Assembly (NCBI GenBank): GCA_030539495.1
Contig: JAUNRX010000016.1
Location: 7,406 to 41,907 of the forward strand
Length of the DNA: 34,502 bases
Reading direction: 5' to 3'
From: a bacterium
Lineage (GTDB): Bacteria > Bacillota > Clostridia > Lachnospirales > Lachnospiraceae
The notes below the pieces were generated by a model. It was not told the DNA's origin. It searched no databases and worked only from the letters and a program-made list of their open reading frames with translations. The position numbers and the translations under genes were made by a program. Positions 4,784 through 34,502 of this stretch are shown here, one piece after another; position 1 is the first letter of the stretch; every line of letters starts with the position of its first letter.

Positions 4784-4831
4784 AGCAGCCGTAGGACCAT
4801 AGTGAAATAGCAGTCTTACGGTTTGCTTTTT
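4784..4831 (+). terminator. Intrinsic terminator after livJ
   Basis: An imperfect stem (AGCAGCCGTAGGAC with GTCTTACGGTTTGCT) ends in a T run at 4827-4831. That T run also forms the left arm of the next hairpin. Confidence 0.8.
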
Positions 4832-4947
4832 ATCTGATAGTTGAGACTATCAGATAAAAACGCTCCACTAAGGAAGTGCACTCACCTGAAAGGAAGATGT
4901 CGCTGGTGCGACCAGGTTCGGCACAAGGAGTTTTACAAGTAAAACTC
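4827..4947 (+). repeat. Structured repeat element, copy A
   Basis: Hairpin H1 is TTTTATCTGATAGT (4828-4841) paired with 4846-4859. The conserved linker AAAAACGCTCCACTAAGG follows, then CACTC. The nested part has outer stem ACCTG (4884-4888)/CAGGT (4913-4917), conserved AAAGGAAGAT, and inner stem GTCGC-TGGT-GCGAC (4899-4912). After TTCGGCAC comes hairpin H4, GAGTTTTAC (4928-4936)/GTAAAACTC (4939-4947). The same architecture with different stem sequences recurs at 19101-19294 and 34345-34502. No ORF fits it. Confidence 0.75.
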
Positions 4948-4965
4948 TATCTAAAAGGTATGTAG

Positions 4966-5020
4966 TCTTACGGAACGGCTTGTTATAAAGATAAAAACGC
5001 TCCGCTAAGGATGCACATTA
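4966..5020 (+). repeat. Partial repeat element, copy B (duplication)
   Basis: AGTCTTACGG plus the AAAAACGCTCCGCTAAGGATGC block repeats 4812-4821 and 4856-4877, but without the H1 hairpin and without the nested stems. It looks like a local duplication followed by deletion. It ends about 25 bp before the livH start and contains the out-of-place ATG at 5011. Confidence 0.65.
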
Positions 5021-5046
5021 TAAGAAAGCATAAGAGGTGTTGGATT

Positions 5047-5925
5047 ATGAATGGATTCATTGAACAGTTTCTAAATGGGCTAATCCCGGGTAGTATCTAT
5101 GCTTTAATTGCACTAGGATATACGATGGTATACGGGATTGCCAAAATGATCAACTTTGCACACGGTGATATTATCATGGTAGGTGCGTACATATTGTTAC
5201 TAGGATTAAATGCCGCTGGAGTTCCAACATGGCTTGCGATTTTATTATCTATAGTTGGATGTGGTATTTTAGGTGTGGTAATTGAAAAAGTAGCCTATAA
5301 GCCATTACGTAATGCTCCAAGTCTGGCAGTACTCATTACAGCCATTGGTGTTTCTTATTTCTTGCAAAATTTATTTCTAGTTATTTTTTCATCCCAAGGA
5401 AAGAGTGTTCCAAAATTTATTCATGTAAGCGATTTTACAGTCGGCGGAGTAACCGTATCCGGCAATATGATCGTAATCTTAGTGGTTACCATTATTGTAA
5501 TGATTGCGCTTACTTATTTTATCAATAAGACAAAACTAGGATCTGCCTTACGTGCGGTATCTGAGGATAAAGGTGCAGCCAGTCTGATGGGAATTAACGC
5601 TAATCGCATGATTTCTATGACATTTGCAATTGGTTCTGCACTTGCCGGTGTTGCAGGTATTCTTTGGGTAAGTATGTATGACAAAGCCTATCCGACACTT
5701 GGCGCCATTCCTGGTATCAAAGCATTTGTTGCAGCCGTTATCGGTGGTATCGGAAGTGTACCTGGAGCAATGATTGGCGGTATTGCACTTGGTATCGTAG
5801 AAAGTTTTACAAAAGCGTATATCAGTGGAGAATTAGTGGATGCCTTTGTATTTGGTCTTCTTATTATCGTATTAATCTTTAAGCCAACCGGAATTCTTGG
5901 CCGTAAGAGAATAGAGAAAGTGTAG
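5047..5925 (+). CDS. livH: Branched-chain amino acid ABC transporter permease LivH
   Basis: This 292-residue membrane protein is the first permease of the Leu/Ile/Val ABC transporter. Its N-terminal LIPGSIYALIALGYTMVYG and INFAHGD motifs are typical of LivH, and about eight hydrophobic segments follow. The cytoplasmic loop SALRAVSEDKGAASLMGIN corresponds to the coupling region that contacts the ATPases. The ATG at 5047 is chosen because AAGAGGTG lies at a good distance. An in-frame ATG at 5011 would add 12 residues, but it falls inside the repeat and has no SD. It heads the livHMGF run; the gap to livM is 10 bp. Confidence 0.93.
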   Translation: MNGFIEQFLNGLIPGSIYALIALGYTMVYGIAKMINFAHGDIIMVGAYILLLGLNAAGVPTWLAILLSIVGCGILGVVIEKVAYKPLRNAPSLAVLITAIGVSYFLQNLFLVIFSSQGKSVPKFIHVSDFTVGGVTVSGNMIVILVVTIIVMIALTYFINKTKLGSALRAVSEDKGAASLMGINANRMISMTFAIGSALAGVAGILWVSMYDKAYPTLGAIPGIKAFVAAVIGGIGSVPGAMIGGIALGIVESFTKAYISGELVDAFVFGLLIIVLIFKPTGILGRKRIEKV

Positions 5926-19067: not shown

Positions 19068-19099
19068 AAAAAGAGACTACATTTTAGTGGTCTCTTTTT
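19068..19099 (+). terminator. Terminator after the AI-2E family gene
   Basis: AAAAAGAGACTAC pairs with GTGGTCTCTTTTT (one G-T wobble), ending in a T run that leads straight into the next hairpin. Confidence 0.85.
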
Positions 19100-19100
19100 A

Positions 19101-19294
19101 AATTAATAGGCAATCTCTCTCGAAATCTCCTATTAATTAAAAAACACCCTAAAAAGAAGGGCGTAGAATGCGCACTCAGCTGCAAAGAGTATGTAGTTAA
19201 TACGACCAGCTTCGGCACGAGCAAAGTGTCTTTGACTTGAAGCGCTTGAACCTCTCATGAATGAGGGGGAGCCTAAGAGTGTCGAAGACACTTT
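19101..19294 (+). repeat. Structured repeat element, copy D (diverged)
   Basis: H1 is AATTAATAGG (19101-19110) paired with 19129-19138. The linker block is degraded (AAAAAACACCC), followed by ATGCGCACTC. The outer stem is AGCTG (19178-19182)/CAGCT (19207-19211); the inner stem GTAGT-TAAT-ACGAC has one mismatch. TTCGGCACGAGCAAAGTGTC follows. H4 is a 14-bp stem with one G-T wobble (19223-19236 with 19281-19294). Stem sequences differ from copies A and C, but pairing is kept. Confidence 0.7.
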
Positions 19295-19340
19295 AGTCTG
19301 TATAGAATTGGGGGATCAAAAGGCTATTTGTTTGTGAACG

Positions 19341-19577
19341 TTTGGGCATATATCAAATTACTAGCTTCAAAATACCCAAAATCATAAGTAAAAAGTAAAG
19401 GAATAAGGCAGTTTTGGCATATACAAGAATTAGTAGTTGAAAATGCCCACGTAATTTGTCGAAGCCCGGGCATATAAAAGTGGAAAATTCTATATATGCC
19501 CAAAACCTCACAAATTCTTTTGAAATAGTCAGGAAATTGGGCAAAAACAGCGAACAAATTTTATATATGCCCAAAGA
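19341..19577. repeat. Cluster of four palindromic repeat units
   Basis: Four units of about 40 bp, each bounded by inverted TTGGGCA/TGCCCAA ends, lie at about 19341-19381, 19411-19450, 19465-19507 and 19533-19577. The third has a perfect GGGCATATA/TATATGCCC stem. Units one and two also align along their length. Open frames on the minus strand here simply follow the repeat. A sequence resembling the right end of copy D (ACACTTTGGTCTAAATATA) follows at about 19617-19637. Confidence 0.65.
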
Positions 19578-19802
19578 CCTGCGCCCCTAGTTGGACATGG
19601 CAAAGTATGCAAAGCACACTTTGGTCTAAATATAAAAGATTTTGAAGAATTTTTTGAATTAATTCTTGAAAATATGGAATACTAATAAAAAAAGTAGGAA
19701 GTTCAATTGTCTAGAAAGCGCCTATTTTAGCGGTTTTTAGGGGGGAAATGTAACGAATTGTAGATATTTTTTGAAAAAAATAAAAAAATATAAGAAAAAG
19801 TG
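19578..19802. other. Gene-free AT-rich stretch before the tRNA operon
   Basis: No coding signal. A small hairpin (CAAAGTATGCAAAGCACACTTTGG near 19602) and G-rich AGGGGGGAAATG at about 19739 are the only visible features. Confidence 0.5.
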
Positions 19803-19866: not shown

Positions 19867-19939
19867 GGGATCATAGCTCAGCTGGGAGAGCACCTGCCTT
19901 ACAAGCAGGGGGTCACAGGTTCGAGCCCTGTTGGTCCCA
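19867..19939 (+). tRNA. tRNA-Val (UAC)
   Basis: Full cloverleaf: acceptor GGGATCA/TGGTCCC, D-arm GCTC/GAGC, anticodon stem CCTGC/GCAGG with loop CTTACAA (anticodon TAC), T-arm ACAGG-TTCGAGC-CCTGT. Discriminator A; no encoded CCA. Confidence 0.95.
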
Positions 19940-29425: not shown

Positions 29426-33052
<3,627 letters not shown>

Positions 33053-33053
<1 letters not shown>

Positions 33054-34326: not shown

Positions 34327-34350
34327 CACCTGATTTTGCAGGTGTTTTTT
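34327..34350 (+). terminator. Terminator-like hairpin before element copy C
   Basis: CACCTG (34327-34332) pairs with CAGGTG (34339-34344), followed by TTTTTT. No plus-strand gene lies just upstream, so the hairpin may belong to the element itself. Confidence 0.75.
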
Positions 34351-34502
34351 AATACATAGGAAACTTCTCTTCAAGAAGCCTCCTATGTATTAAAAAACGC
34401 TCTGCTAAGGATGCGCACTCAGGGGAAAGGAAGATGTCGCAAAAAATAGCGACATTCCCCTTCGGCGCGGCAAAGTTTCTTCGACTTGAAGGTTTTGCAC
34501 CC
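34345..34502 (+). repeat. Structured repeat element, copy C (cut by window end)
   Basis: H1: AATACATAGGA (34351-34361) paired with TCCTATGTATT, with an inner CTTCT/AGAAG. Linker AAAAAACGCTCTGCTAAGG then ATGCGCACTC. Outer stem AGGGGA (34421-34426)/TCCCCT (34456-34461); conserved AAAGGAAGATGTCGC; inner stem ATGTCGC (34434-34440)/GCGACAT (34449-34455). Then TTCGGCGCGGCAAAGTTTC and GACTTGAAGG. The right end runs out of the window. Confidence 0.75.

Follow-up and report, generated by a model that had tools for sequence, protein, structure and literature searches.

The window analyzed here is a 34,502-nucleotide stretch of a Lachnospiraceae contig (JAUNRX010000016.1, positions 7,406 to 41,907 of the forward strand; assembly GCA_030539495.1), and the repeat copies described below all lie on its plus strand. 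A gene assigned by Pfam to the substrate-binding proteins is followed by an intrinsic terminator, visible in the sequence as a hairpin (4785–4826) and a T-tract (4827–4831), which is the likely insertion target of the repeat that we call copy A. In the predicted fold, the first hairpin of this copy, H1, occupies positions 4827–4860, and within it the target T-tract pairs with the A-tract of the element itself (4856–4860). Next come a conserved block, CGCTCCACTAAGGAA (4861–4875), predicted to form a small hairpin termed P0 (TCC, loop, GGA), and a core (4876–4924) that is delimited by both covariation and folding. The core is composed of three stems, P1 (4876–4879/4921–4924), P2 (4884–4888/4913–4917), and P3 (4899–4903/4908–4912), with a conserved internal loop, AAAGGAAGAT, at 4889–4898. 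Copy A closes with a right-hand hairpin, H3 (4928–4947; GAGTTTTAC-AA-GTAAAACTC), which is indicated by folding and by comparison with its ortholog in a congener (G001). A partial second copy, with the left block AAAAACGCTCCGCTAAGGATGC, is recognized by a core-model match at 4993–5041. The mechanically called start of the adjacent permease ORF (BPD_transp_2; 5011–5925) falls inside this partial copy, and the ATG at 5047 is the likelier start.

Copy C begins directly 3′ of the terminator (about 19072–19099) of a gene for an AI-2E-type transporter. It is composed of H1 (19095–19144), a P0 variant with a longer stem (CACCCT/AGGGCG, with one mismatch; 19145–19163), a decayed core-model match (19150–19219), and H3 (AAAGTGTCTTTGAC..GTCGAAGACACTTT; 19223–19294). 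Copy D is preceded by a hairpin (CACCTG/CAGGTG) and T-tract, evident from the sequence at 34327–34350. Its H1 (34345–34397, by sequence and fold) is followed by a core variant matched by the model, with an AGGGG/CCCCT stem and a longer inner loop (34393–34469), and by the start of H3 (34470–34502, by sequence). The right end of the window is also the contig end, and copy D is cut there. When folded as DNA, copies A and D are far better than shuffled sequences (z −6.8 and −7.3, respectively), whereas copy C is not better (z −1.2). A second repeat with inverted motifs TTTGGGCATATA and TATATGCCCAAA lies 3′ of several own-genome copies of the element, at 19300–19580 and also at four other loci (L001, L003, L015, and L026); it may have inserted between two H3-like hairpins, or may belong to a longer form of the element. 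Elsewhere, the window holds an ordinary T-box leader (RF00230; 24160–24407), ordinary tRNA genes at 19867, 19979, and 28705, and a gene (29439–33053) whose large product carries Big and fn3 domains as well as one of glycosyl hydrolase family 53. Tandem tRNA-Gly genes about 117 bp apart were seen in another congener (G003:C1:179066–179491).

The first-pass annotation described three larger copies and one partial copy in the window. A covariance model of the core (70 positions), built from 11 copies of the same genome of which copy A is one, matches all four (4856–4925, 19150–19219, 34393–34469, and 4993–5041). Further copies are indeed present in this genome: the left-block motif AAAAACGCTCYGCTAAGG, with at most two mismatches, has 52 matches compared to none for the same pattern read backward as a control, and at E ≤ 0.1, with 150 of 916 candidates scored, the core model matches 91 times. 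The copy number of the repeat in its own genome is about 50 to 90. Several contigs start or stop inside copies, as is expected of repeats in a draft assembly.

Some details of the initial description must be revised. Two copy labels of the outer stems were out of coordinate order, such that AGGGG/CCCCT belongs to the copy at 34345 and AGCTG/CAGCT to the copy at 19101. The inner stem GTAGT/ACGAC of the 19101 copy has the one compensated pair that was reported, but it also has one A/G mismatch. Leading hairpins that were said to differ completely in all three copies are related in two of them, given that those at 19101 and 34345 both read ATAGG..CTCCTAT. The list of shared conserved blocks holds only in part, because GCAAAGTNTCTT and GACTTGAAG are missing from the copy at 4827, whose third hairpin is another one.

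Across copies, the unit consists in order of the target T-tract, H1, an A-tract, P0, the core hairpin (P1/P2/P3), and H3, and spans roughly 120–200 bp. In most copies the 5′ foot of H1 is the T-tract of an intrinsic terminator, which pairs with the A-tract of the element. The A-tract is followed by CGCTCCGC..GGATGCGCAC with the small hairpin P0. Within the core, P1 encloses P2, which in turn encloses P3, and the conserved unpaired strand (carrying the loop sequence noted above in most own-genome copies) is located on the 5′ side only. H1 is a perfect Watson–Crick stem of at least 10 bp in 151 of 202 copies, and 96 distinct arm sequences are represented. The right end in some genera reads TTTGTTC after H3. 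At the foot of H3, TTTGTT recurs in 36 of 207 copies, 25 of which have TTTGTTC, versus 13 of 1250 background windows (3 with TTTGTTC), and this end is clearest in G000 (the genome of the window), G419, G322, and G130 and part of G336, representing a minority of copies overall.

The proposal that these elements are under structural selection is supported by covariation in the core, although template switching in DNA palindromes may contribute part of this signal. Among the 11 own-genome copies, 92.1% of cells are paired and 5 of 15 pairs exhibit double changes, a result reached by 3 of 500 shuffles, while the covariation score was reached by none of 500. With 104 homologues, 95.7% of cells are paired, 13 of 15 pairs are doubly changed, which no shuffle of 500 reaches, and there are 173 double-change cells. 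Another 53 matches, all from genomes other than its own, give 92.8% paired, 9 of 15 pairs (reached by 1 of 500 shuffles), and 96 cells. The shuffles ignore relatedness, whereas a control in which pairing partners are slid by one to three columns preserves it, and this control scored far lower every time. Alignments A4, A5, A6, and A7 were made by fitting to the model, which biases them toward it; A3 was aligned without the model. The core fold also forms in five of six copies folded singly (L044 being the one without it). In the G001 ortholog of copy A (91% column identity), pairing is kept via double changes in H3 (A:T to G:C) and P1 (T:A to C:G), and in the same ortholog one G:C pair of P1 has become G:T, one P2 pair is broken, and the H1 loop is altered.

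A scan of the window at the Rfam gathering threshold returned only the T-box and tRNAs, and relaxed scans of seven loci and copy A produced only sub-gathering-score matches in the element region. The suggestion that the element could be a described family repeat therefore found no counterpart in Rfam, and we recognized no published description in the literature searched. One report on structured RNAs of human microbiomes shows no occurrence of the word Lachnospiraceae in its indexed text, and its supplementary motif tables may hold the motif (PMC8040213).

The repeat is patchy within Lachnospiraceae and rare elsewhere in the phylum. Model R1 (E ≤ 0.001) matches 17 of 61 genomes; every one of these belongs to the 37 from Lachnospiraceae, and the 24 from other families of the order have none. 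A stricter cut-off, with scoring limited to 12 candidates in each genome, gives matches in 93 of 397 Lachnospiraceae genomes. Phylum-wide, model R2 matches 3 of 398 genomes, namely its own genome, a member of the same family (G234), and a member of another family (G572); because 12 candidates were scored per genome, weak or diverged copies may be missed. Among 80 titled pattern matches listed (from at least 117 stretches), the labels of 67 are Lachnospiraceae itself or its genera, which we take to include Butyrivibrio, Herbinix, Eisenbergiella, Acetatifactor, Fusicatenibacter, Hungatella, and Lachnoclostridium. The others are 12 labeled Eubacterium, Clostridiales, Eubacteriales, or “bacterium,” and one Anaerolineaceae MAG, possibly a binning error. 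Copy number ranges from 7 to 112 across 18 chosen bearers and from one to about a hundred across bearers generally, with tandem arrays of copies in G001. No match was found by blastn in phages with copy A or in plasmids with copy D, and a pattern scan of viral contigs matched 4 stretches.

A diverged sister element with the same layout is present in another family of the phylum, where G572 carries three copies and G816 carries one (L277, L278, L281, and L282). Its parts are H1, AAAACGCTC, P1, P2, a one-sided loop (CAATGTA), and P3, and the H1 region differs among the three copies of G572 and looks broken in L282. One of these copies adjoins the start of a gene that, named by eye, we presume to be ispE-like. 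Two relatives of G572 (G466 and G821) gave weak matches (E 0.03–0.04) in which the sister layout is absent by eye.

An RNA helix tolerates G·U but not A·C, whereas both are mismatches in a DNA hairpin. We counted such 1×1 mismatches where two Watson–Crick pairs flank them on each side, with the neighboring terminators serving as the only RNA control. In 156 copies, the terminators exhibit 45 G·U and 6 A·C, compared to 15 G·U and 32 A·C for H1, core, and H3 together. For 56 near-unique copies, the corresponding counts are 17 and 2 versus 6 and 10 (Fisher p 0.003). When wobble pairing is allowed, G·U makes up 10.1% of terminator pairs but only 1.5% of H1, 3.8% of core, and 5.9% of H3 pairs. Among aligned core pairs other than the outermost, there are 17 G·U and 42 A·C in alignments A4 and A5 and 29 and 28, respectively, in A6. 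Thus, the written strand is without an RNA signature. The first-pass interpretation of the element as a folded RNA is not favored, because its helices lack the excess of G·U over A·C seen in the adjoining terminators, and the pairing looks to be at the DNA level.

Since an A·C on the written strand is a G·U on the other, these counts also bear on a structured RNA made from the reverse strand. There the conserved block reads CGCATCCTTAGCGGAGCG-TTTTT, a hairpin resembling an intrinsic terminator that would end a transcript running through H3, core, and P0. The predominance of A·C in A4 and A5 and in the hairpins before deduplication (32 versus 15, p 0.019) is consistent with such an RNA, as are the P0 variants in L072–L075, L077, and copy C, which when read on that strand form longer hairpins with T-runs behind them. 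The opposite strand might therefore carry a weak RNA signature in intact copies. However, once near-duplicates are removed the excess is not significant (10 versus 6, p 0.45), and A6 exhibits none. Moreover, if the mobile unit ends at H3, a transcript of this strand would need an outside promoter, and the gene on that side, downstream on the written strand, is directed away from the element in 86 of 113 cases (simple ORF calls). On balance, we consider a reverse-strand RNA to be unlikely.

The reading that we prefer, a mobile DNA element directed to terminators, draws on where the copies are found. An H1 was found in 142 of the 156 full-length copies examined, each with 110 or more bases of upstream sequence (the other 14 gave none), and a hairpin is located directly 5′ of H1 in 136 of these 142, with a T-run of at least four there in 118. 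A strict terminator test is passed by 106 of 153 upstream windows, and by 32 of 54 when near-duplicates are removed, versus 23 of 444 random and 32 of 153 reversed windows. The homologues from the contig database were picked by an exact pattern, so this sample favors intact left blocks. The element is mostly in the orientation of the terminator, and the upstream gene is directed toward it in 95 of 113 contexts (simple ORF calls). A T-run of at least four follows H3 in 48 of 145 cases, and at two loci a new copy sits immediately 3′ of the H3 belonging to an earlier one (L406, where CACTTT precedes the new H1, and L020).

This placement could also be expected of a host 3′-UTR or insulator element, meaning an auxiliary terminator or a stabilizer of mRNA 3′ ends that was spread by insertion and then kept for blocking read-through or exonucleases. 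The direction of the upstream genes, the T-runs after H3, and the double changes by which the G001 ortholog of copy A keeps its pairing in H3 and P1 all agree with such a role. However, a terminator is mostly there already, some copies are truncated, and the hairpins do not have the G·U tolerance of the adjoining terminators. In addition, only 93 of 397 Lachnospiraceae genomes carry the repeat, with anywhere from one to about a hundred copies in each. It is therefore quite improbable that a host function of this type explains the family.

Comparisons between genomes argue for a mobile DNA element. In the relative G419, the nine copies examined (L325–L333) are almost alike in H1, core, and H3, including six with an identical core, and their flanks differ by eye. 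Nine joined flank pairs from G000 were searched in three congeners (G001–G003), and one site, L002, is cleanly empty in G001. The match there is contiguous across the joint (..GAGCCTTTTTT^ATGCG..), which falls somewhere in the T-run, and no target duplication is visible at this one clean site, where a short one would be masked by the T-runs. L004 is compatible with an empty site, but its right flank aligns only further on. For L018 and L062 the element is in both genomes compared, L074 is a remnant in G001, and the remaining four pairs are uninformative. By eye, the two ends of the element are not inverted copies of each other. The T-tract position, the near-identical copies in unrelated flanks of the relative, the clean empty site, and the patchy, high-copy distribution uphold the first-pass proposal of a non-autonomous mobile element.

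Away from contig ends, seven truncated copies are without all or part of H3 and four are without the left part (40 of 181 candidates scored), and these few cases exhibit no clear polarity of the kind expected from target-primed reverse transcription. A miniature retroelement, whose reverse-strand RNA would use an A-tract end to prime on the terminator T-tract by analogy with group IIC introns, would match the orientation, the A-tract opposite a target T-tract, the terminator targeting, and the lack of visible target duplication at one site, but given these truncations and no group II match in the Rfam scans, we regard it as very improbable.

A RAYT/REP or IS200/IS605 partner for the mobile DNA element was considered and rejected, since no element is found near seven RAYT-like genes and nine bearers have no Y1 match. 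Specifically, Y1_Tnp (PF01797; E ≤ 0.001) is without a match in 10 of the 31 Lachnospiraceae genomes tested first, four of which bear elements (G003, 42 copies; G004, 1; G005, 7; G014, 24), and in 5 of 18 bearers of a second set (G336, G114, G394, G239, and G142). These nine include a one-contig genome with 42 copies, and G004 and G014 are only 74% and 86% complete, respectively. For the genome of the window, the sole Y1_Tnp match is short and contains a stop. Other bearers do have Y1_Tnp, and thus Y1 may have been lost after the element spread. The 2.4–4 kb surrounding the seven RAYT-like genes (235–283 aa; L260–L266) contain no element at E ≤ 1. An inverted-repeat search at four of these genes revealed other long palindromes at two, one short repeated palindrome at another, and none at the last. 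Long palindromes flank the RAYT-like gene of G007 (L261; 1311–1385 and 2471–2543), and this arrangement is possibly a REP/RAYT pair of Lachnospiraceae. No transposase-like family recurs beside the copies when 709 ORFs of at least 100 aa (simple calls) from 117 stretches are clustered; one ABC-transporter cluster appears in 12 loci and no other cluster in more than 3. A transposase-bearing full-length relative was likewise not found.

Several known systems resemble this element in part. IS200/IS605 derivatives such as PATEs have hairpins near their ends, a single orientation, no visible target duplication, and a short T-rich target. The element shares the hairpins, the single orientation, and a T-tract target, and no duplication is visible at the one clean empty site, but Y1_Tnp is missing from nine element-bearing genomes, and the T-tract targeted here is behind a hairpin. 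Group IIC introns target intrinsic terminators and insert directly 3′ of them in one orientation. Terminator-directed insertion in one orientation is also evident for our element, which, unlike these introns, is only 120–200 bp and shows no group II family in Rfam scans. It may differ from a classical MITE, in that its ends are not inverted copies (by eye) and no duplication is seen at one site, where T-runs would mask a short duplication. BOX, RUP, and SPRITE of Streptococcus pneumoniae are short noncoding intergenic repeats with predicted stem-loops, of which SPRITE is terminator-like and found near gene 3′ ends, and terminal inverted repeats are reported for BOX and RUP (PMC3049150). Compared by that description, the element is likewise a short noncoding intergenic repeat predicted to fold into stem-loops, but it occupies other hosts, resides behind an existing terminator, and has helices that covary across genera. 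REP and REPIN sequences with RAYT transposases are small, palindromic, high-copy, intergenic mobile DNAs (PMC3733652, PMC8266576, PMC3116915), and the palindromes of REP/RAYT systems carry a GTAG or CGTC tag at the foot (PMC3733652). Our element is also small, palindromic, high-copy, intergenic, and probably mobile, but it is longer, has several hairpins, and is not found near the seven RAYT-like genes.

We conclude, with a probability of roughly 60%, that the copies represent a non-autonomous, hairpin-ended, terminator-targeted mobile DNA element. Its hairpins are probably recognized as single-stranded DNA. In the mechanism we envision, an enzyme acting in trans would recognize H1, core, and H3 in this form, and the unit would be inserted at a T-tract 3′ of a hairpin, where the A-tract of the element would pair with the T-tract of the target. 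H3 and the T nucleotides after it could then serve as the next target, with further copies inserting behind the first. Insertion behind its own H3, as at L406 and L020, would explain tandem arrays of the kind found in G001. A standing Y1 transposase (IS200/IS605 or RAYT) is probably not what mobilizes the element in every host.

Several observations count against this mobile-DNA reading. In the copy common to G000 and G001, most of the pairing survived two double changes, something not required of a dead selfish copy. No mobilizer was found, and only one empty site is clean. The strict terminator test is failed by 47 of 153 windows, and the upstream gene is directed away from the element in 18 of 113 contexts. 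The A4 and A5 mismatch counts (17 G·U and 42 A·C) are also compatible with an RNA made from the other strand, and only 36 of 207 copies show the TTTGTT right end. We more tentatively raise the possibility, which we hold to be the less probable outcome, that the element represents a new class of terminator-homing mobile DNA. Such a class would have as its substrate a single-stranded DNA fold made up of H1, the core with its one-sided conserved loop, and H3, a terminator hairpin and T-tract as its target, an A-tract as its guide, and an enzyme outside the families tied to small palindromic repeats.

The mismatch test carries the warning that strong covariation alone is not proof of RNA. Counting G·U against A·C, with neighboring terminators as an internal RNA control, provides a cheap RNA-or-DNA probe for covarying elements. 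The repeat is abundant in some members of a major bacterial family of the gut and rumen, and Rfam is without a family for it. It provides a naturally occurring system of low-harm insertion directed to terminators.
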